Shown: positions 2,349-37,902 of the stretch, one piece after another | How positions within the stretch are numbered: position 1 is the stretch's first letter | How the letters are laid out: each line of letters starts with the position of its first letter | Virus record (IMG/VR): IMGVR_UViG_3300027719_000013 | Location: 1-39,528 of that record | DNA: 39,528 nucleotides | Source of the DNA: a virus | Strand: one strand, 5' to 3' | The notes under the pieces: generated by a model | Databases searched by the model: none | Told to the model about the DNA's origin: nothing | What the model saw: the letters and a program-made list of their open reading frames with translations, nothing else | Position numbers and translations under genes: made by a program

Positions 2349-3182
2349 ATGAACAAGACCTTTATTTCAGGAGCAAATGGTTTTATCGGTAGTTATTTAA
2401 AGGATAAATTTAAGGCTGAAGGTATACCCAGAAAATACTTATATAGTGGTAATTTAGATAGTTTATTAGAAGGTGCAGAAACTGTAATTCATTGTGCTAG
2501 TTATGGTAATATGGCATGGCAAAAAGAGATAAGTGAAACTTTTGATGCTAATGTACTTTCTACTTTTGATTTACTTGAATCATGTCGTAAGGTTGGAGTT
2601 AAGAACTTTATTTTTATTGGTACTAGCTCCGAATATGGGGACAAAGAAGAACCAATGAGTGAAGAAATGTTACCGGAAACTAAAACTATGTATGGTTGTA
2701 CTAAAGTCTGTGGAACTTATTTAACACGCCATTATTCTCAATATATGAACACAGTTACCATAAGACCATTTTCGATTTATGGAGAGAGAGAAGATGATAG
2801 GCGTTTTATCCCTAAACTAATTAGTTCAATACTAACCAATAGTCAATTTACCTTAATGGAAGGTAGACACGACTGGTTACATATAGACGACTTTTGTAAT
2901 GCAATTGATATAGTCTTAAAAAATATGGATTTACTTAGTGGATTAGTAATTAATGTTGGTAGTGGTAGAGAATTTACAAATGGAGAAGTATTAGAGATTT
3001 TAAACATCATATCGGGTAAGAAAGCTAATATTGTCATAGCTCCTAAAAAAGAACAAGACAGTAATACATGGGTGGCAAATAATGGTAAAATAAGGGCGTT
3101 AGGATGGAAACAAAGAGTTAGTCTATACGATGGTTTAAAAAAAGTTTATGACTATAAAACAGCGTCTAATCAAAATATGTAA
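2349..3182 (+). CDS. NAD-dependent epimerase/dehydratase (extended SDR)
   Basis: 277 residues, typical length for NDP-sugar epimerases, dehydratases or reductases of the extended short-chain dehydrogenase family. The Rossmann motif GANGFIG is at 8-14, the catalytic Ser region SSEYG at 93-97, and the YxxxK pair at Tyr115/Lys119. It should bind NAD(P) and act on a nucleotide sugar; which reaction is not visible. It is followed with a 35-base overlap by a transketolase half gene, so the three genes probably make one activated sugar. It has a private leaderless promoter. Cargo rather than virion gene. Confidence 0.85.
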   Translation: MNKTFISGANGFIGSYLKDKFKAEGIPRKYLYSGNLDSLLEGAETVIHCASYGNMAWQKEISETFDANVLSTFDLLESCRKVGVKNFIFIGTSSEYGDKEEPMSEEMLPETKTMYGCTKVCGTYLTRHYSQYMNTVTIRPFSIYGEREDDRRFIPKLISSILTNSQFTLMEGRHDWLHIDDFCNAIDIVLKNMDLLSGLVINVGSGREFTNGEVLEILNIISGKKANIVIAPKKEQDSNTWVANNGKIRALGWKQRVSLYDGLKKVYDYKTASNQNM

Positions 3183-3813
3183 AGAACATCAATTGACTCA
3201 TGTTGGATCATGTTTGAGTGCAATTAATGGAATTGATGCGGTCTATAAAGTCAAGAATAACAACGAGAAATTTATATTAAGTAATGGACACGCAGCTCAT
3301 GCTCTTTATGTAGTGTTAGAAAGTAAAGGATTTAGTATCGAACAATTGTTAAGAATGGGAACTCACCCTGATAGATTAACTAAAATTGCTAATGATGGAT
3401 TAGTAGAAGAACCAATCGATTGTTCAACTGGATCACTTGGAATGGGTTTAACAGTAGCAATAGGAATGGCTTTTGCTAATAGAGGTAAGAATGTTTACTG
3501 TATGATTTCTGATGGTGAAATGGCCGAAGGGTGTATTTGGGAATCACTAAGGATAATACATGATTTTGATTTAACTAATCTAAAACTTTTAGTCAATGCT
3601 AATGGTTATGGTGCTTATAAAGAAATAGACACCGATGAGTTGATACCACGTTTTCAATCATTTGGATTTGCTGTATCTAAAGTAAAAGATGATGTAGATG
3701 AAATAATCGGATCACTCAAAATCTGTATTGACTTTCCGGTAGTAACATTTATTGAAACAAATAGTGATTACAAAGAGCTTAAAGGTTTAGACTCACATTA
3801 TGGAAAGATATAA
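3148..3813 (+). CDS. Transketolase, N-terminal (thiamine-diphosphate) subunit
   Basis: 221 residues covering only the PP domain of a transketolase. Landmarks are THVGS (His18), LSNGHAAHAL (residues 44-53), and the TPP/metal motif from SDGE (121-124) through NANG (150-153), where classical enzymes have GDGE and DNNG. With the next gene it would form a two-subunit enzyme moving a two-carbon ketol unit between sugars. Split transketolases like this are known in sugar biosynthesis clusters as well as in central metabolism. The start overlaps the epimerase end, and the stop overlaps the partner start. Confidence 0.85.
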   Translation: MTIKQRLIKICKEHQLTHVGSCLSAINGIDAVYKVKNNNEKFILSNGHAAHALYVVLESKGFSIEQLLRMGTHPDRLTKIANDGLVEEPIDCSTGSLGMGLTVAIGMAFANRGKNVYCMISDGEMAEGCIWESLRIIHDFDLTNLKLLVNANGYGAYKEIDTDELIPRFQSFGFAVSKVKDDVDEIIGSLKICIDFPVVTFIETNSDYKELKGLDSHYGKI

Positions 3814-4294
3814 TTCAATGAGAGGATATTTTGCTTTTGAGTTATGGTTACAAATGCAAAAGAACCCTAATATATATTTAATAACTGGGGACTTAGGTTA
3901 TGGTATGTTTGACCAGATTAAAAAAGACTTCCCAGATAGATTTATAAATTGTGGAGCTAGTGAACAAACCATGATTGGAATAGGTGTAGGACTAGCACTA
4001 GAAGGTAAAATACCATTCTGTTATTCCATAACTCCTTTCTTACTTTACAGACCTTTTGAATGGATAAGAAACTATTTAGATCACGAGAAAATACCAGTCA
4101 TATTAGTTGGTGGCGGTAGAAATAAGGATTATGAACACGATGGTTTTACCCACCATGCAGAAGAAGATAAAGATGTAATGAAGTTATTTAAAAATATAGA
4201 AGCATATTGGCCAGAAACCAAAGAAGAAATACCAGAGTTAGTTAGTAAGATAATAGATAGTAAAAAACCTAATTACTTAAATTTAACGAGATAA
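3800..4294 (+). CDS. Transketolase, pyrimidine-binding subunit
   Basis: 164 residues matching the middle (Pyr) domain of transketolase: GDLG at 30-33, DRFINCGASEQ with the catalytic Glu55 that activates the thiamine ring, and the THHAEED segment at 117-123 that lines the active site. The third, C-terminal domain of full-length enzymes is absent, which is common in split forms and leaves catalysis possible because that domain is not catalytic. It overlaps the PP-domain gene by 14 bases. Confidence 0.85.
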   Translation: MERYNSMRGYFAFELWLQMQKNPNIYLITGDLGYGMFDQIKKDFPDRFINCGASEQTMIGIGVGLALEGKIPFCYSITPFLLYRPFEWIRNYLDHEKIPVILVGGGRNKDYEHDGFTHHAEEDKDVMKLFKNIEAYWPETKEEIPELVSKIIDSKKPNYLNLTR

Positions 4295-6430: not shown

Positions 6431-6832
6431 ATGGATAAAACAGAAATAAATGTAGAACTTTTAGACAAAGCCCTAGATTATGTTTACGATATTTTAGACC
6501 GTTCATCAATAGAATATATGCTATTTGGTGATACTGCTTACTCAATAATTAATAACGTTCCACCTAAAGTCCAAAAGATTACTCTTGGAGTAAAGCAATG
6601 TGATTTAACTGAGTTTGCTAAACGAATATTAGAATTGACTGTACCAGGTGCTACTAATGATGGTAGTAAGGTTAAATTTAATTCACCTGATGGAGTTCCA
6701 ATTGAGATAAGAATTATTAAAAAAGATTATCCATTCTTCAAAAATCCAGATACTGTTTTATTTAGAATGGACGCCTATCATATCCCAAATCCATTTGAAA
6801 ATTACTGGAAGATATATAGACTAATACAATGA
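6431..6832 (+). CDS. Nucleotidyltransferase-like protein, catalytic Asp pair apparently lost
   Basis: 133 residues. The pattern 'helix, then EYMLFGDTAYSII, then KVQKITLGVKQ' follows minimal nucleotidyltransferases of the Pol-beta superfamily, in which the corresponding strands read GG(x)A... and T.DIDL.V. Here the strand reads ITLGVK, without the Asp pair, so catalysis is doubtful. It overlaps the FkbM gene by four bases and probably works with it in glycan modification. Identification rests on fold pattern and is moderate at best. Confidence 0.5.
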   Translation: MDKTEINVELLDKALDYVYDILDRSSIEYMLFGDTAYSIINNVPPKVQKITLGVKQCDLTEFAKRILELTVPGATNDGSKVKFNSPDGVPIEIRIIKKDYPFFKNPDTVLFRMDAYHIPNPFENYWKIYRLIQ

Positions 6833-7560
6833 ACTATGTTGATTTTGAATTTAAGAATAAATTAACTCGGCTTTACTACAATACAGATAAAAACTCACTT
6901 TCTAATGTCGTCAATGAAGTATTTATAGATGAGTGTTATAAAAAAGGTTTAGATTGGATAGAAAAGATTAAAGAGCCAGTTGTTTTAGATGTTGGAGGTT
7001 TTATAGGTGATACAGCAATATACTTCTCACAACATAAAGGGGTTAAAATACACGTGTTAGAGCCTTGTAAACGTAATTTAGATTGCCTTGTTTATAATGT
7101 AGAATCAATCCCTGATATTAAAGTTTATAGTATTGGTCTTGGAAGTTGTAACAGAATGGAAAATTTAGATGAAGGTGATAATGCTGGATCTGGTGGTGAA
7201 TCAATTTACAATACTAATAACAAATCAGAAGAAATTAAGCTAATGCGGATAGACTATTTCTTTAAAGAATTTAGCATTAAACACATTGATCTGCTAAAAA
7301 TAGATGTAGAGGGTGCAGAGTATGAGATATTTGGTAGTCAAGGATTTTCAAGAGTAAATAAAAATATAGATGCTATTATTGGAGAAACTCATTTAAGTCC
7401 TGCCTTACCTATTATTGCCGAAAAAATGTTGACTCATTATGGATATAAGTTTGAATGGCTACCGTTTAATAATCTTCATTATGGTTGGCACGGTAAATTT
7501 GGTAAATGGAAAAAAGATTTTGATGTTGATATTCCAACATTATTTTTTGCACATAGATAA
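6829..7560 (+). CDS. FkbM-family methyltransferase (copy 1)
   Basis: 243 residues. The SAM-binding motif VLDVGGFIGDT is near residues 52-62, and the family's hallmark HIDLLKIDVEGAEYEIFG is near 155-172. FkbM enzymes O-methylate sugars or other small molecules. A second, diverged member is at 19317, also in a cargo block. It is translationally coupled (ATGA) to the nucleotidyltransferase-like gene. Likely role: methyl capping of a surface sugar; the substrate is unknown. Confidence 0.85.
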   Translation: MNYVDFEFKNKLTRLYYNTDKNSLSNVVNEVFIDECYKKGLDWIEKIKEPVVLDVGGFIGDTAIYFSQHKGVKIHVLEPCKRNLDCLVYNVESIPDIKVYSIGLGSCNRMENLDEGDNAGSGGESIYNTNNKSEEIKLMRIDYFFKEFSIKHIDLLKIDVEGAEYEIFGSQGFSRVNKNIDAIIGETHLSPALPIIAEKMLTHYGYKFEWLPFNNLHYGWHGKFGKWKKDFDVDIPTLFFAHR

Positions 7561-11196: not shown

Positions 11197-13404
11197 ATGT
11201 CGGTAAAAATAACAGAAGGCACATCAACAAGTGTCGATACAAGTCTAATTGGAACAGTAAATCGCCAAATAATAAATATTGGTGATCCAACAGATATTAA
11301 TGGGATTGCTCCAGTAACTGTTGCAGATGGAATGTTAGTCAAAGTATCAAATCCTACTGGTTCAGTAGTGATGACAGTCGGAACTATAAGTTCTATGCCA
11401 GATATTACAATGACTGGTGGAACAATCCAAAATATAGCAAGTGGATCAATAGTTGTAACTGCTGGGACAATGACTCTTGGAACTTTACCAGGCGTAGGTA
11501 CTATAACTAATATCGGGAGCATATCTAATATTGGCACTATGCCAGCAATAAATGCAAATCCATCTAGTGGTACACAAAACACATTGGGTACAGTAGGTGT
11601 TGTTAATAATCTAGTAACAGGAACTCTTGCAAGTATTGGAACAGTTACTGGTATTGGAGTGGTAACAAACCTATCAAACGGTACAATTCAAAGTTCAGGA
11701 ACTACTACTGGAGTTGGTACGGTATCTGGAATAAATGTATTAACTACATTAACAAACTTATCAAATGGAACTATACAATCAAGTGGTACTTCTACAGGGG
11801 TAGGTACTGTTACAGCTATTGGTTCAGTTACTCAAATAGGAAATATTATTACTGGTACTATTGCAAATAGCGGTACGACAACCGGAGTTGGAGTAGTATC
11901 TGTTTTAACTACTGGTACTGTTGTAAATAATGGTGGAACTGCTGGAACAGTAACTGGAGTGGGTACAATTACTAATATAGGTACTTTAGGTGTAATCAAT
12001 AATGGAACTATTGCTAGTGTTGGGACTTTACCTGGAGTTGGGACTATTACAAACATAGGATCAATTTCATCAATCGGTACAATGCCTTCAATTAGTGCTA
12101 ATCCTGCAAATGGAACACTAAATACTTTAGGAACTGTCGGAGTCGTAAATAATATAGTTACTGGTACTTTAGCAAGTATTGGGACTATCCCAGGACTAGG
12201 AACAATTACTAATATTGGGAGTATATCTAGTATTGGAACAATGCCTGCAATTTCAATGGGTGATATAAGTGGAGGAACTATTGATTTAATTACAGACGGA
12301 ACAGTATCAATTAAAGGAACTGTCCCTGTAACTGGATCTTTTGCTATTGGAACTATAGATATGTTATCTGCTGGTACATTAACATCAATTGGAACAGTTG
12401 TAGGTTTAGGGACAATAACGAATATTGGAAGTATTAGTTCAATCGGTACTATGCCAGCTATAACAATGGGTGATCTTAGCGGTGGCACAATTGATCTTTT
12501 AACAGATGGAACTGTACAAATAAAAGGTGGAACTGTAACTGTTGGAAGTATTACTGGAATAGGCACAATAACAAATCTAGGATCGGTAACTAATGTTGGA
12601 ATGTTAAATGGAGGAACAGTTGTTACTTCAAGCGGAACTATAACTAATTCAGGTACAACTACAGGTGTAGGTGTTGTATCCATGCTTTCTGCTGGAACTA
12701 TAAGTATGATAAATGCCGGTACTATAACTTCAAGTGGTACGACAACCGGAGTTGGTACAATGACTAACCTTGGTTCAGTTACAAGTGTTGGTTTATTATA
12801 TGGAGGAACTATAAATACAATCGGAACAGCTACAGGTATTGGAGTTATAACAAACTTAACTTCTGGTTCTGTAAGGATGACATTAGGAACTTTAACAAGT
12901 GGATCTATTACAAATGTCGGTTCAGTTTTAAATATTGCCAAAGTTCACACAGGAGGTACTGTACCAAATATTTTAGGAGGTACTATTACTCAAGTATTAA
13001 ATGCAGGCACAACCCAAAATATATTAGCTGGGACTATAACTACAGTTTTGAATGCTGGCACTACACAAAATTTACTTGCAGGAACAATTGATACTTTAAA
13101 GAATGGAACAGTAGAAGTAAAACCATTATCTGGTGTAGTTTTAACTACTCCAACAGCCATAGGATCAGCGGGTACAGCATTCCCAGTACCAGCAAGTGCA
13201 TTATCTAATAGAAAATCAATACTTTGTTACAATTCAGGAACAGTCGTTGTCTATATTGGTGGAGGTACAGTTACAACTGCTGCTGGTATCCCTATTCCAG
13301 TTGGTGCTTATTCTCCAGCATTAGATATTGGTACAACAATTCTTTATGGAATAGTAGCTACTAATACTGTTGGTGGAACATTAATTGCAATGGAGGTATC
13401 TTAA
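11197..13404 (+). CDS. Long Gly-Thr repeat protein, predicted beta-solenoid fibre or adhesin
   Basis: 735 residues dominated by a degenerate period of about six residues with G-T and I/V-G steps (IGTxTGIG, NGTIxSSGT). Larger blocks recur: GTLPGVGTITNIGSIS is followed by a similar 55-residue unit at about 93-147 and 277-331, and a second unit ends GDISGGTIDLITDGTV / GDLSGGTIDLLTDGTV. Such regular turns suggest a parallel beta-helix or triple-stranded fibre. The C-terminal ~100 residues (VVLTTPTAIGSAG onwards) are not repetitive and look like a small cap domain. It lies between the head genes and the C1q-like and esterase adhesins, so a surface fibre is likely. Confidence 0.65.
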   Translation: MSVKITEGTSTSVDTSLIGTVNRQIINIGDPTDINGIAPVTVADGMLVKVSNPTGSVVMTVGTISSMPDITMTGGTIQNIASGSIVVTAGTMTLGTLPGVGTITNIGSISNIGTMPAINANPSSGTQNTLGTVGVVNNLVTGTLASIGTVTGIGVVTNLSNGTIQSSGTTTGVGTVSGINVLTTLTNLSNGTIQSSGTSTGVGTVTAIGSVTQIGNIITGTIANSGTTTGVGVVSVLTTGTVVNNGGTAGTVTGVGTITNIGTLGVINNGTIASVGTLPGVGTITNIGSISSIGTMPSISANPANGTLNTLGTVGVVNNIVTGTLASIGTIPGLGTITNIGSISSIGTMPAISMGDISGGTIDLITDGTVSIKGTVPVTGSFAIGTIDMLSAGTLTSIGTVVGLGTITNIGSISSIGTMPAITMGDLSGGTIDLLTDGTVQIKGGTVTVGSITGIGTITNLGSVTNVGMLNGGTVVTSSGTITNSGTTTGVGVVSMLSAGTISMINAGTITSSGTTTGVGTMTNLGSVTSVGLLYGGTINTIGTATGIGVITNLTSGSVRMTLGTLTSGSITNVGSVLNIAKVHTGGTVPNILGGTITQVLNAGTTQNILAGTITTVLNAGTTQNLLAGTIDTLKNGTVEVKPLSGVVLTTPTAIGSAGTAFPVPASALSNRKSILCYNSGTVVVYIGGGTVTTAAGIPIPVGAYSPALDIGTTILYGIVATNTVGGTLIAMEVS

Positions 13405-17944: not shown

Positions 17945-18043
17945 ATGGCGTTTTGGGGTGCGTCAGTTAAGATTGATATAGGCATTTGCCAAACTTATAA
18001 AATATCATTCACACCCCTATCTGGAAGGATAGGTGTAAGCTAG
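17945..18043 (+). CDS. Possible 32-residue peptide after the coat gene
   Basis: An open frame starting two bases after the coat stop: MAFWGASVKIDIG then TYKISFTPLSGRIG. Composition is ordinary for a protein, and it fills most of the gap. Its stop codon lies in the stem of the hairpin described next. No ribosome-binding site is seen. Confidence 0.3.
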   Translation: MAFWGASVKIDIGICQTYKISFTPLSGRIGVS

Positions 18044-18064
18044 AGTTCGACTCTCTAGCCTTCC
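18023..18064 (+). other. T-arm-like double stem before 18068
   Basis: GCTAGAG/CTCTAGC (18039-18045 with 18053-18059) encloses the loop TTCGACT, and GGAAG/CTTCC (18023-18027 with 18060-18064) stacks outside. The loop and stem resemble a tRNA T-arm, but there is no D-arm or anticodon arm. The GGAAG strand can instead be the loop of the competing stem CCTATC/GATAGG just upstream. It may be a small translation switch. Confidence 0.35.
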
Positions 18065-18067
18065 ACT

Positions 18068-19316: not shown

Positions 19317-19949
19317 ATGAAGGGAATCTTTTATAATGAATGGGAAGGGAGTTTTATACCCGACATTCTTAAAGAAATTTATACAGATAAAATATTCGAA
19401 CCATACTTTTTGGGCAAGAAAGATTTGACCATATTAGACGTGGGAGCAAACATTGGATTGACTACTAATTACTTTTCAAAATACGGTAAGGTTTACTCAA
19501 TTGAACCAGCTCAAGAGTCTTTTAATTGTCTTAAAAAAACAATAGAAAATAATGAGCTAAACGCTGTCCCTATCCAATATGCTATCTCTAGTAAAAATGG
19601 AGAAGCAACTTTTTACCACAATAAAAATAATTCGACTGCAAATTCATTTTTCAAGGAACTACAGGACGGAGATACAGAAATCGTTAAAACTAGGACACTT
19701 GGTGAAGTCTTTAAAGAATATGCCATAGAACACGTTGATTTTATGAAGATTGATGTTGAAGGTGCTGAATTTGACATACTAGGACATGATTCTTTTAGTG
19801 AAGTGGCTGATAATATAGATATTATAATGGGTGAAATACATTCTTGGACAAATCGTAACCCTGGACAGATATATCAAGCATTACAAAATAGAGGTTTTAA
19901 AGTTAGAAAGGTTAATAGCGATGCTAATATCTTCTATGCAGAAAGATAA
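19317..19949 (+). CDS. FkbM-family methyltransferase (copy 2)
   Basis: 210 residues. SAM motif ILDVGANIGLTT (about 39-50) and hallmark HVDFMKIDVEGAEFDILG (about 137-154). It resembles the protein at 6829 over these motifs, but the rest is diverged. It likely O-methylates a sugar built or displayed through the two following glycosyltransferases. It overlaps the next gene. Confidence 0.85.
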   Translation: MKGIFYNEWEGSFIPDILKEIYTDKIFEPYFLGKKDLTILDVGANIGLTTNYFSKYGKVYSIEPAQESFNCLKKTIENNELNAVPIQYAISSKNGEATFYHNKNNSTANSFFKELQDGDTEIVKTRTLGEVFKEYAIEHVDFMKIDVEGAEFDILGHDSFSEVADNIDIIMGEIHSWTNRNPGQIYQALQNRGFKVRKVNSDANIFYAER

Positions 19950-20670
19950 AGTAATTGTTTTTACTATTGCTGATTCAAATAATGAGCCATTAGCTAAATT
20001 ACTTGAGAAAAGTTTTAAACATTTTCATCCAGAAGTAGAATTTAAGATTTATGGTCAAAAAGAACTTAACGAAATAGGTTACAAGAATATACAAGATTTT
20101 TTTTATCGAGCAACACCATTTTTTGCCAAAGAATTAATCAAAAAATATGATTTGGTAGTTAAAATAGATGCAGATAGCGTTATTACATCCCCTATAAATG
20201 ATGTTTTTGATGATACAAGCTATGATGTTGGTATTGTATTAAATAATAACCGTTTAGAGCCTTTAGTGAAGTGTATTAATATCCCACCACAAATTTATGC
20301 TAATTGTGGTTTTGTTGCTATGCGTAGTAAAGAATTTATAGATCATTGGTGGGAATTATGTAATAGGTTTGTATTTAATGACTTTCAATTTAGAGAACAA
20401 GACTTACTTAATATTATGATTGTTTATGGAAACTATAATGTAGCAAATTTTGATGGTGGAACTAAATGGTATGGACTTTGTAGTAAAAGTGAATGGTCAA
20501 GATTTGAAATGCATGGCGGAAAAATAACTTGTCCAGGTGATATTACTTATAACCCAACTCAAAAAACTATTTGTTGTATTCATGCTGCTGGTGGTAATCA
20601 ACAAAAGTGGAATTGGGAAAAACAATTTAAACCAGAAGTCGTTAATTATTTAAAAGAGATAACAAAATGA
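19921..20670 (+). CDS. Glycosyltransferase, GT8-like
   Basis: About 249 residues from ATG 19921; ATG 19936 (MQKDKVIVF) is equally plausible, while the longer frame from 19831 lies inside the FkbM gene. VIVFTIADSNNEPLAKLLEKS opens a GT-A fold, KIDADSVI carries the DxD-type metal and nucleotide-sugar site, and NCGFVAMRSKEFIDHWW and the late HAAGGNQQKWNW follow the GT8/stealth-like pattern of a retained sugar-transfer pocket. It transfers a sugar from a nucleotide donor; donor and acceptor are unknown. Confidence 0.75.
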   Translation: MLISSMQKDKVIVFTIADSNNEPLAKLLEKSFKHFHPEVEFKIYGQKELNEIGYKNIQDFFYRATPFFAKELIKKYDLVVKIDADSVITSPINDVFDDTSYDVGIVLNNNRLEPLVKCINIPPQIYANCGFVAMRSKEFIDHWWELCNRFVFNDFQFREQDLLNIMIVYGNYNVANFDGGTKWYGLCSKSEWSRFEMHGGKITCPGDITYNPTQKTICCIHAAGGNQQKWNWEKQFKPEVVNYLKEITK

Positions 20671-21893
20671 AAGATAATACTTTTGTATCAGAAGGTCAGA
20701 CAGTAGTTAAAAATCGTTTCTACAAACCTGATCGTAAATTAAGAATCCATTGGAACTCCAATGCTGTTTTTGCACATAGTGGTTATGCTACTCAAAGTTA
20801 TTTAATAGTCTATGGACTTTTAAAAGCTGGGTTTCCTATTTGTCATACTGCTTTTTATGGTCTTGAAGGATCATCGGTAGTTTTAGATGGTCTTAAAATA
20901 TATCCTAAGATTGGTGATATGTGGGGTTCAGACGCTATGATTTATCATGCTAACGATTATAAAGCTGATGTAAACGTAAGTTTTCAAGATGCATGGCCTC
21001 TTAATCCACAAATGATGAAAGAAGTTAAAAATTGGATTGCTTATGTACCAATTGATTCTTCACCAGTTCATCCTGGAGTTTATGATCGTCTTAAACAGGC
21101 TTGGAAAGTTGTATCATTTGCAGAATTTGGTCGTAAGAGTTTAGCTGATATGGGTATGAGTTCTACTCTTATCTATCATGGTGTAGATGCTGATACTTAT
21201 AAACCACAAGATAAAATTGAATGTAGAAAAACTTTTGGATTACCAGAAGGAAAGTTTTGGTTTGGTATGGTAGCTGCTAATAAAGATAATCCACCTCGTA
21301 AATCATTTCAAGAGGTATTAGATGCTTTTGTTCCATTTCACAAAGCTCATCCAGAAGCTGCTATCTTAATGCAAACTCAAGTTAATAATCCTAGTGGATT
21401 TCCATTAAGAGATTATATTAAATATCTAGGACTTGAAGATAGTGTATTCTTTATTTCCGACTATGAATCTATGTTTAAACTTGATAGTGTTGCCATGTCA
21501 AAGTTTTTTAACTGCCTAGACTGTTTATTGTGTCCTTCTCAATCAGAAGGCTTCGGACTTCCCATAATTGAAGCCCAATCCTGCGGTGTACCTGTTATCA
21601 CTACTGATTGGACGGCTATGACGGAAAATATAATAGACAGGCAAACTGGCTACCTAGTCAAAGTTTCCGCCAAACGGTGGACAGCAGGTAACTGTTACTT
21701 CGGAGTTCCAGATACTAAAGACTTATTAGATAAAATGGAAAAGATATATGCTACTGATAGAGTCAAGATGGGACAAAACGCTAGAGAATATATACTCAGT
21801 AAATACGATTTTGATAAAGTATTACTTCCTAAGTGGATTAAATTCTTTGAAGATGTAGAAAAAGAAGTATATCCTTTGACAGAAAATAAATAG
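20667..21893 (+). CDS. Glycosyltransferase, GT4 family (GT-B fold)
   Basis: 408 residues. The GT4 signature is clear in the C-terminal half: CPSQSEGFGLPIIEAQSCG followed by VPVITTD, with the E(x7)E pair that binds the donor. The N-terminal half opens with LRIHWNSNAVFAHSGYATQS, similar to phage and bacterial glycosyltransferases that start from a Gly-rich acceptor loop. It is coupled to the GT8-like gene by a four-base overlap. With the FkbM enzyme it would extend and methylate a surface glycan or a virion protein glycan. Confidence 0.88.
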   Translation: MKDNTFVSEGQTVVKNRFYKPDRKLRIHWNSNAVFAHSGYATQSYLIVYGLLKAGFPICHTAFYGLEGSSVVLDGLKIYPKIGDMWGSDAMIYHANDYKADVNVSFQDAWPLNPQMMKEVKNWIAYVPIDSSPVHPGVYDRLKQAWKVVSFAEFGRKSLADMGMSSTLIYHGVDADTYKPQDKIECRKTFGLPEGKFWFGMVAANKDNPPRKSFQEVLDAFVPFHKAHPEAAILMQTQVNNPSGFPLRDYIKYLGLEDSVFFISDYESMFKLDSVAMSKFFNCLDCLLCPSQSEGFGLPIIEAQSCGVPVITTDWTAMTENIIDRQTGYLVKVSAKRWTAGNCYFGVPDTKDLLDKMEKIYATDRVKMGQNAREYILSKYDFDKVLLPKWIKFFEDVEKEVYPLTENK

Positions 21894-31043: not shown

Positions 31044-31090
31044 CAATCAAGAGTAAAATTGGCACTTTATACGATCGAGTGCTAATGTCT

Positions 31091-31096
31091 TATAAT
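31091..31096 (+). promoter_or_regulatory. -10-like box upstream of the holin candidate
   Basis: TATAAT, 12 bases before ATG 31109, flanked by ATACGA (31069 region) and TCGTAT inverted half-sites. No -35 at the right distance. If used, the leader would be about five bases. Confidence 0.4.
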
Positions 31097-31108
31097 AGGT
31101 CGTATATT

Positions 31109-31372
31109 ATGGGTAAAATTAAATTATATAATCTAACTAATCAGACCGCTTATAAATTAGAAATAAAAACTATGTCAGAAAAATTTAGTCTTAATAAAGA
31201 AGACATTGTAAAAGTCTTAAAGAACGCTGCTATATTCTTAGCACCGGCTTTGCTTGTTTTCTTGTTAGCAGTCCAATCAGGAGTTTCTGTTAAAGAGGCT
31301 CTTAACCTAGTTTATCTTTGGGGTTTAAATACCGCCATTGATTTACTAAGAAAATTTACAGAGGGTAGATAA
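31109..31372 (+). CDS. Small membrane protein, holin candidate
   Basis: 87 residues from ATG 31109; an internal ATG at 31172 gives 66 residues (MSEKFSLNKEDI) and may be the true start, since the first 21 residues are polar. The core is a hydrophobic segment (NAAIFLAPALLVFLLAVQSG) and a second amphipathic one (ALNLVYLWGLNTAIDLLRKF). It follows the candidate endolysin by about 65 bases. Two membrane segments and the location support a holin. Confidence 0.55.
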   Translation: MGKIKLYNLTNQTAYKLEIKTMSEKFSLNKEDIVKVLKNAAIFLAPALLVFLLAVQSGVSVKEALNLVYLWGLNTAIDLLRKFTEGR

Positions 31373-31377
31373 TTTAA

Positions 31378-31420
31378 AACCGACCTTTAAAACTTAGTTA
31401 CTACGCTAGTTAGGTCGGTT
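31378..31420 (+). other. Large hairpin after the lysis cassette
   Basis: AACCGACCT (31378-31386) and AGGTCGGTT (31412-31420) pair perfectly (9 bp); inside, AAC-TAG and CTA-GTT extend the fold. Few T residues follow, so termination would be weak. It starts the 323-base gene-free stretch 31373-31695. Confidence 0.55.
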
Positions 31421-31484: not shown

Positions 31485-31555
31485 GGGTGAGAATGGATAT
31501 AGACTCTTACTTAATATGGGTAAGTAGCGAATCGGTTCGATTCCGATCTCATCCA
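31485..31555 (+). ncRNA. tmRNA/tRNA-Ala-like RNA without anticodon or message
   Basis: Acceptor GGGTGAG (31485-31491) pairs with CTCATCC (31548-31554), with a G3-U70 wobble and discriminator A at 31555, the identity set of alanine acceptors. The T-arm is perfect: ATCGG-TTCGATT-CCGAT (31531-31547). The D region (31492-31505, AATGGATATAGACT) has no stem but keeps a GG and reads like the tmRNA D loop (TGGATTCGAC). The central arm CTTAC/GTAAG has a nine-base loop with no alanine anticodon. CCA is not encoded. See findings. Confidence 0.6.
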
Positions 31556-31619
31556 CTTGATATAGATTGTTATTTATTATATCAATTTACTTATAGGTCA
31601 AAAGTATTAAAATATCGGT

Positions 31620-31690
31620 ATGAATCAACAAGATTGTGATTCAATAAGTTTACTCGTTTATACAGGAGTCGTCGAATAGACGGCTTTTTT
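31620..31690 (+). terminator. Hairpin pair with terminator directly before the phosphoesterase
   Basis: TGAATCA/TGATTCA (31621-31627 with 31637-31643) is followed by AGTCGTC-GAATA-GACGGCT (31667-31685) and a run of six T. It ends five bases before ATG 31696. Over the same bases a 19-codon frame (31620-31679, MNQQDCDSISLL...) ends inside the terminator stem, which is the layout of a leader-peptide attenuator, though coincidence is possible. Confidence 0.55.
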
Positions 31691-31695
31691 AATAT

Positions 31696-32454
31696 ATGCC
31701 CCATATTAAAGTTGGTATAGGAGTGTGGGATTTACATTCTCCTTATGAAAATAAAGTTTTATGGAATAATATCCAGAAAGTAATAAAGGATATCAAACCT
31801 GATTATTTTGTATTTGGTGGAGATCAGTTAGATATGGATGCTCTTAACCACCATGAAGAAGAAAAAGATAATAGACGTTATATGGAAGGTAAAAGAATCA
31901 AAGTCATGTATGATACTTTCCAAAAAGATATATTAGACGTATTAGAAAAATCTTTACCTACTAAATGTGAAATGATTTGGCTTAATTCTAATCATGAGAA
32001 GTGGGGTGAGAAGATGGTTGATAAGAATCCTCAACTAGAGGGACTAATTGAAGTAGAAAGGTATCTAGAATTAGAAGATAGAGGTTGGGAAGTAGTTTGG
32101 TATAAGCAATATAAAAAGATAGGGAAGATGTATTTTACTCATGGAGATAAGAGAGGTGGTAGTGGTGGTAAATTTCATGCTAATAAGATGGTTAATATAT
32201 CTGAAAGAAATGTTTGGTATGGACACCACCATACATCACAGTCTATAGTCAAAATAAATGACTTTGATTGTGAACCACATATAGCTACTTGTGTTCCTTG
32301 TGCTTGTAATAAAAATCCAGATTATGCTAAAGATGATGCTAATTCTTGGGTTAATGGATTCTTAATCTTCTATTTGTTGCCAAATGGAAATTTTAACGCC
32401 TATACCGTAATTGCAATAGATGGTCATTTTATTTATTCAGGTAAATATTACTAA
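31696..32454 (+). CDS. Calcineurin-like metallophosphoesterase
   Basis: 252 residues with the full metal-site set: WDLH (Asp12, His14), GGDQLD (Asp43), SNHE (Asn99-His100), THGD (His149) and GHHH (176-179). Substrate may be a nucleic acid end, a cyclic nucleotide or a phosphoprotein; nothing in the sequence decides. Phages of many kinds carry such enzymes near recombination genes, and here HNH and NinG genes follow. The start lies five bases after a terminator, so expression may depend on read-through. Confidence 0.82.
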   Translation: MPHIKVGIGVWDLHSPYENKVLWNNIQKVIKDIKPDYFVFGGDQLDMDALNHHEEEKDNRRYMEGKRIKVMYDTFQKDILDVLEKSLPTKCEMIWLNSNHEKWGEKMVDKNPQLEGLIEVERYLELEDRGWEVVWYKQYKKIGKMYFTHGDKRGGSGGKFHANKMVNISERNVWYGHHHTSQSIVKINDFDCEPHIATCVPCACNKNPDYAKDDANSWVNGFLIFYLLPNGNFNAYTVIAIDGHFIYSGKYY

Positions 32455-37252: not shown

Positions 37253-37402
37253 ATGAAACTAAATAAAGAACAATTAGCACTTCTATACATGTGTGTATCA
37301 AATGAATTAGATACTTATACTATGGAAATGATAAACAAAGATGGTATTAAATATGCACAATTAAATATATTATTAAACGAAATCAAAAAGGAGTTAAAAT
37401 AA
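37253..37402 (+). CDS. Hypothetical 49-residue protein
   Basis: Helical; MKLNKEQLALLYMCVSNELD at the start. Its last codons hold the AAGGAG ribosome-binding site for the annealing protein, with a one-base overlap. No family is recognised. Confidence 0.45.
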   Translation: MKLNKEQLALLYMCVSNELDTYTMEMINKDGIKYAQLNILLNEIKKELK

Positions 37403-37902
37403 TGCCTATCAAAATTCATGGAAACGAATATACAACCGTAGCAGAGAGGTTAAAACTTGCTACTAAAGATATTACTGAAATATATACAGAAGTATTACAA
37501 TTTGATCCAAAAGTTGTAGTAAGAGCTACTGTAGTATTAAAAGACGGTAGAAAAGCTACTGGTATTTCTGCTGCTAATATCAATAAGCAGATAGAAAAAG
37601 AAAGTCCATTTGAAATTGCTGAAACATCAGCTTTAGGTCGTTGTCTAGGATTTTTAAACTATGGATTAAATGATTCAATAGCAAGTGCAGAAGAAATGCA
37701 AAAGGTAGAACGTGAAATAATAAGAGAGCCTGTTGATATGTCAAAATCACCATCTGATCCAGATAATGAGTTTAATAAATCTACTTGTAAAGATTGTGGC
37801 GGTAAAATCGCTATATCAAGACTTGGTAAACCATACTGCACTAATAGATGTTGGTTAGCAGAGAATAAACACTTTATTACAGAGTTTAAAAATAGAAAAT
37901 GA
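37402..37902 (+). CDS. Probable single-strand annealing protein with C-terminal zinc ribbon
   Basis: 166 residues. ATVVLKDGRKATG and then SPFEIAETSALGRCLGFLNYG (about 69-88, followed by SIASAEEM) match the conserved core of Rad52/DdrA-like phage annealing proteins, where the A-x-T-x-A-x-GR-x-L helix is diagnostic. The C-terminus adds a zinc ribbon (Cys129, Cys132, Cys146, Cys150). It would anneal complementary strands during recombination-dependent replication; the small TxKQ protein and NinG are fitting partners. The family call is by pattern. Confidence 0.6.
   Translation: MPIKIHGNEYTTVAERLKLATKDITEIYTEVLQFDPKVVVRATVVLKDGRKATGISAANINKQIEKESPFEIAETSALGRCLGFLNYGLNDSIASAEEMQKVEREIIREPVDMSKSPSDPDNEFNKSTCKDCGGKIAISRLGKPYCTNRCWLAENKHFITEFKNRK

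Follow-up and report, generated by a model that had tools for sequence, protein, structure and literature searches.

We asked whether a phage can carry a tmRNA, the bacterial RNA that rescues stalled ribosomes, in a form that has lost its message. Trans-translation is near-universal in bacteria, and the question was raised by a short stretch with alanine-accepting features in a viral sequence of 32% GC (IMG/VR record IMGVR_UViG_3300027719_000013), the whole 39,528 nucleotides of which are here called the window.

Anatomy of the element

The locus holds a predicted message-less tmRNA-like RNA, made up of the tRNA-like domain only (Table 1). An earlier note, made from the letters of this DNA alone, had described an acceptor with G3–U70 and A73, a D region, a central stem and a T arm, and this anatomy was found to be correct to each base. 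We set the end of the element at 31556 rather than at 31555, because C74 is kept across the family described below. The D region has TGGAT..GAC, with ATA standing for TTC (ATAGAC versus the TTCGAC of tmRNA), and is also variable in family members of the L022 type (TGGATAGC). The 42 nt from the D region to the acceptor 3′ strand comprise P2, a linker and the T arm only, with no tag frame and no pseudoknots. The element is without the inner hairpin carried by most family members, and its cap resembles those of the 61- and 63-nt members L323 and L204, which are likewise simply capped.

Table 1. Features of the element and its surroundings (positions are those of the window).
Feature	Position	Strand	Remarks
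97-aa ORF	31079-31372	+	Upstream neighbour of the element
Stable hairpin	31378-31420	+	z -3.4; may mark a processing site or the point where the preceding transcript ends
Message-less tmRNA-like RNA	31485-31556	+	72 nt, including A73 and C74
Acceptor 5′ strand, GGGTGAG	31485-31491	+	G3 = 31487; 7 of 7 bases paired with CTCATCC (31548-31554)
D region, AATGGATATAGACT	31492-31505	+	Stemless; TGGAT..GAC; tmRNA consensus ATGGATTCGAC
D-region segment, ATGGATATAGAC
P2-like stem, CTTAC/GTAAG	31506-31510/31520-31524	+	5 bp; occupies the position of the message
Cap loop of P2-like stem, TTAATATGG	31511-31519	+	9 bases
T stem, ATCGG/CCGAT	31531-31535/31543-31547	+
T loop, TTCGATT	31536-31542	+
Acceptor 3′ strand, CTCATCC	31548-31554	+	U70 = 31552, pairs with G3 (31487)
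A73, C74	31555, 31556	+	Read from the sequence
Intrinsic-terminator-like hairpin, then T6	31664-31690	+	z -3.5; downstream; missed by a simple terminator scan
Metallophosphoesterase gene	31696-32454	+	Downstream neighbour of the element

There was no usable anticodon in the element, the nine-base loop being incompatible with a seven-base anticodon loop, and an alternative central stem of 6 bp gives A, not U, at position 33. Folded alone, the element was stable (z -2.7), but in the minimum-energy fold as computed the pairing of the D and T regions departs from that of a cloverleaf.

Standard RNA models and chance controls

The architecture of the element is exact and is no product of chance. 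A descriptor composed after the site had been seen (7-bp acceptor, 5-bp T arm with a TTCRA loop, A as base 73) matched the window once only, at the element, and in 150 dinucleotide shuffles gave five matches in total, none of them when G3–U70 was also demanded. Running ARAGORN, a check proposed in the earlier note, gave no call of a tRNA or a tmRNA across the whole window, and Rfam at gathering scores gave nothing in the whole window. With relaxed thresholds, the best clan match was tRNA-Sec (17.5 bits), and the tRNA model RF00005 aligned to the element at full length with 22.1 bits, which is below its cut-off. The standard tmRNA model RF00023 gave no match to the element, and a full tmRNA at this site was rejected on that ground. 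A permuted tmRNA (RF04321) was likewise rejected, with the T arm alone matching at 9.3 bits and the 5′ half preceding the 3′ half in the window.

A viral family of message-less tmRNAs

Viral contigs were first scanned for TGGAT..GAC together with a T loop, which returned many ordinary tRNAs in addition to elements of tmRNA-like architecture. This combination was discarded as proof, as it also retrieves the D arms of phage tRNA-Arg and many chance stretches; the argument drawn from TGGAT..GAC before was therefore weaker than claimed, since ordinary phage tRNA-Arg D arms fit the motif too. A sharper pattern, GATGGTTTCGAC at most 50 bases from a T loop, yielded 71 stretches in viral contigs, almost all of them 79–81-nt copies of one architecture (acceptor, stemless tmRNA D region, short helix, T arm, acceptor), and two further viral-contig patterns yielded 44 and 23 stretches. 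When pairing, G3–U70 and A73 were required, 68 distinct elements at 125 loci were retained, 61–89 nt long and including the window element and that of the isolate Jojan60; L021-type elements are counted among the 68, are maybe part of a longer tmRNA called there by ARAGORN, and are not relied on. In 8 of 10 tested family records the match to the Rfam tmRNA model ran over the full length of the model, save for the missing message, at 61–72 bits.

From 25 of the sequences, with the window left out, we made an alignment (A1) and from it a covariance model of 79 positions (R1). Using R1, family elements were confirmed in the isolated Streptomyces phages pSt2308, BRock, GiJojo and Alone3 and in Stenotrophomonas phage Jojan60, with phage LuckySocke giving a family match by BLAST alone. 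None of the isolate elements is annotated as an RNA; they are either unannotated or lie under a hypothetical protein. Phages QDWS359 and Rb1 also gave one R1 match each, but these proved to be genuine permuted tmRNAs and were left out. Among 84,980 cellular genomes the sharper pattern gave three chance matches, and with matches so few, all by chance, the message-less form looks virus-specific. As judged from these sequences, there is a large and unannotated viral family of predicted message-less tmRNAs of 61–89 nt.

Constraint on the alanine determinants

In alignment A1, 96.9% of the cells were paired and two-sided changes were seen in 12 of 18 pairs, with a covariation of 0.622, compared to 0.142 in shuffled alignments and no more than 0.12 after sliding of the structure. 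The stems covary strongly across dozens of phage elements, as had been asked of related phages in the earlier note. When the acceptor and the 3′ end were both left free in the scan, G3–U70 together with A73 was found in 36 of 37 distinct sequences, the one exception (L194) apparently being a bacterial MAG sequence that matched by chance, while acceptor pairs 4–6 varied freely in the same scan. The alanine determinants are therefore held as the stem drifts, and A73 and C74 are retained across the family. Conservation of the D region and T loop was partly built into the search patterns and was not counted as evidence.

Assignment of the window element

When R1 was run on the window, the element was the best match, at 35.9 bits over model positions 1–79 of 79, placing R1 ahead of RF00005 by 14 bits. 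In the 18 family records analyzed with both models, clear mini-tmRNAs had R1 scores of 57–94 and RF00005 scores, where scored, of 13–32, as against at most 33 and 36–70, respectively, for tRNAs in the same records and 32–36 and 46–63 for tRNAs in other records; a D-arm-poor tRNA-Ala (in L062) reached 36.9 with R1. The R1 score of the window element is hence well under that of the clear family (at least 57) and near those of the best-scoring tRNAs (33–37), so that R1 alone would not decide; it is the RF00005 score and the difference between the two models that put the element on the mini-tmRNA side. Its D region has ATAGAC, which may weaken SmpB binding. We regard the element as divergent and its membership in the message-less tmRNA family, as judged from these comparisons, as probable, not proven.

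A minihelix of 44 nt with acceptor and T arm (GGAAGG..GCTAGAGTTCGACTCTCTAGCCTTCCAC, window 18023-18066) lies right after the major capsid gene. As a second element it was rejected, being the second-best R1 match at 16 bits and folding no better than shuffles.

The element could instead be a decayed or highly unusual tRNA gene, perhaps for tRNA-Ala, from which the D stem and anticodon have been lost and which has no tmRNA ancestry. This explanation, which we consider rather improbable though worth keeping in mind, agrees with the full-length alignment to RF00005 at 22.1 bits, but clear mini-tmRNAs also get RF00005 scores in the same range (about 20–25). It further agrees with the presence of TGGAT..GAC in phage tRNA-Arg D arms, with the resemblance of the six-base linker TAGCGA to a tRNA variable loop, and with the existence of odd phage tRNAs, such as the tRNA-Ala in L062 and the tRNA-Ser in L290–L293. 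However, all 17 of the 17 pairs of the three stems are intact together with the alanine determinants, neither U33 nor an anticodon loop of seven bases is found, and the 14-bit lead of R1 over RF00005 is reversed, by at least 14 bits, in tRNAs.

The odd tRNAs themselves merit description. That of L062 (1040-1114), a phage tRNA-Ala(TGC), has a D arm that is degenerate, and its best Rfam match is tmRNA at 17.3 bits, not tRNA. The phages of L290–L293 share a terminase relative and carry tRNA-Ser genes with GGA and GCT anticodons and odd or missing D arms, three of four of which are missed by ARAGORN.

Searches for close relatives of the site found no related phage in which the element is conserved; the one near copy, L002 (IMGVR_UViG_3300004241_000070), has its contig end at window position 31568, 12 bases past the element, and the element itself lies outside it. 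L002 represents the same phage in another contig, without differences in the part of the overlap that was compared, and the assembly perhaps broke here because the site varies. Synteny by way of the neighbouring metallophosphoesterase retrieved the same phage alone, and no relatives of the upstream 724-aa protein were found. Four R1 matches among terminase relatives turned out to be the tRNA-Ser genes described above, and the terminase relatives compared share little beyond the terminase and are therefore uninformative on the window site. A match to Bacillus phage Mater was restricted to the AT-rich 3′ flank.

Genomic setting

Just upstream of the window element there was a weak match to peptidase C39, and a promoter scan of the same region gave no convincing promoter on the + strand. 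Some members of the family are found in the gap that separates the genes for head protease and capsid, others within tRNA arrays, next to genes for primase, helicase or replication initiation, or after an endolysin, and in one group the element is antisense to the flanking genes. This variety of placement, independent of neighbours, favours an RNA acting in trans. It also bears on the possibility of a tRNA-like punctuation acting in cis, by which RNase P and 3′ processing would cut or protect the late transcript and the RNA would have no partner. Such a role would suit the position of the window element between genes of the same strand, with hairpins on either side, and of several family members directly upstream of the major capsid gene. 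We nevertheless find it unlikely, as elsewhere in the family the element runs antisense to its neighbours or lies within a tRNA array, and as constant G3–U70, A73 and C74 amid varying acceptor pairs would be unexpected for a mere cleavage site.

Neither the window nor any of 17 family records searched yielded a gene for SmpB, and host SmpB would therefore be used. A protein of unknown function, phrog_11717, is common to the window (37402-37902) and the records L088 (6822-7457) and L136 (9348-9920); its gene begins 58 bases past the mini-tmRNA in L088 and is 370 bases off, on the opposite strand, in L136. Elsewhere in the window, ORFs at 2349-4294, 6829-7560 and 19317-21893 lie among structural genes and look, as judged by eye, like sugar- or methyl-transfer proteins, with resemblance to an epimerase, two transketolase-like halves, FkbM-type methyltransferases and glycosyltransferases. 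The ORF at 11197-13404 (735 aa) consists of degenerate GTV/GIGTITNIG repeats, and the strand opposite it carries an open frame of 369 aa.

Proposed function

We give a probability of roughly 0.5 to the reading that the window element is a phage tmRNA cut down to its tRNA-like domain that lowers host trans-translation. For the window phage we infer expression, charging, SmpB binding and benefit, as follows. The element would be cut out of a transcript, with RNase P acting at the acceptor, the host would complete the CCA end, and AlaRS would charge it with alanine by recognizing G3–U70 and A73. Host SmpB and EF-Tu would then bind the element as they bind tmRNA and, having no message, it would fail at the switch of the ribosome to a tag frame. 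It might thus compete with host tmRNA for SmpB and stalled ribosomes, or leave ribosomes template-less, and in either case trans-translation would be lowered during infection. The benefit is a matter of guesses: phage proteins may be spared tagging, or host defences that cleave mRNA may be blunted.

This proposal leans on Mycobacterium phage DS6A, which is described as carrying a tmRNA of the tRNA-like domain only (PMC4131195, citing Mao et al. 2009; PMC11915505). A DS6A-like RNA is reported to inhibit tmRNA strongly in E. coli whether chargeable or not (PMC4131195; also PMC11915505), perhaps through titration of SmpB (PMC4131195). Because of that inhibition, which is in line with expected tmRNA biology, a decoy is the best explanation, and by analogy the window element would most likely act as a decoy that blocks trans-translation. 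Two parts of the earlier reading have thereby held up: a stripped tmRNA is the best-supported identity, by R1 recognition and family covariation, and among the functions suggested it is the block on trans-translation that has most backing in the literature (PMC4131195, PMC11915505). The suggestions of an alanine carrier, or of a decoy for AlaRS or EF-Tu only, found no support here.

An alanine-charged RNA could also rescue ribosomes without a tag, as proposed for message-less mitochondrial tmRNA, and so aid the host machinery. The retained alanine determinants are compatible with such a role, and mitochondrial and two plastid tmRNAs have been kept without a tag frame, the mitochondrial one with an SmpB partner (PMC11915505). 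The sole experiment cited for such an RNA (PMC4131195), however, gave inhibition, chargeable or not, and we hold the chances of tag-less rescue to be small. An attachment-site copy of the 3′ end of host ssrA, with its precedent in the ssrA-integrating phages Milly and TClif that carry the T arm and acceptor 3′ strand beside an integrase (PMC10865867), is highly improbable, as the 5′ half is present and paired in the window element, no integrase was found among the subset of window proteins tested, and the family elements covary and hence are not copies of one site.

Relation to known systems

Mitochondria, two plastids and phage DS6A are the known sources of message-less tmRNAs (PMC11915505), and the literature searched gave no further phage case beyond DS6A. 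The kind of RNA is thus not new, and the idea of the earlier note was in this respect anticipated; what is new is the breadth of the phage family, far larger than described in that literature, and the short AT-rich variant of the window. The tmRNA of DS6A, reported as a single case, is like the window element a phage gene with barely more than the tRNA-like domain and no tag frame, a likeness by description and not by sequence alignment. The window element is set apart by its ATAGAC D region, its simply capped P2 of 5 bp and its phage of 32% GC. The mitochondrial tmRNAs without a message that occur in jakobids and others (RF02544) and the two Mallomonadaceae plastid tmRNAs of about 65 bp (PMC11915505) have also kept the tRNA-like domain and lost the tag frame, but organellar tmRNAs are inherited with the organelle, the mitochondrial genes being usually permuted, whereas the window element is phage-carried. 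Standard tmRNA (RF00023) and phage-borne full tmRNAs share with it the acceptor G3–U70, the stemless D region, P2 and the T arm, but it lacks their pseudoknots and tag reading frame, which come to about 300 nt. With tRNA-Ala it shares G3–U70, A73 and the T arm, but not the D stem or the anticodon arm with U33 and TGC or GGC.

Implications

The family supplies natural minimal tRNA-like domains of 61–63 nt for SmpB and AlaRS biochemistry, its presence in sequenced isolates makes deletion and tagging tests possible, and R1 can serve as an annotation model where current tools detect nothing. Tentatively, and at somewhat less than even odds, message-less tmRNAs may serve many kinds of phages as a general weapon against trans-translation, with DS6A the first glimpse of a widespread, overlooked family and the window element a reduced AT-rich branch, the altered D region of which would suit either SmpB from an unusual host or some other partner. 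If it is true that dozens of unrelated phages carry such RNA decoys, ribosome rescue would be a front line between phage and host.
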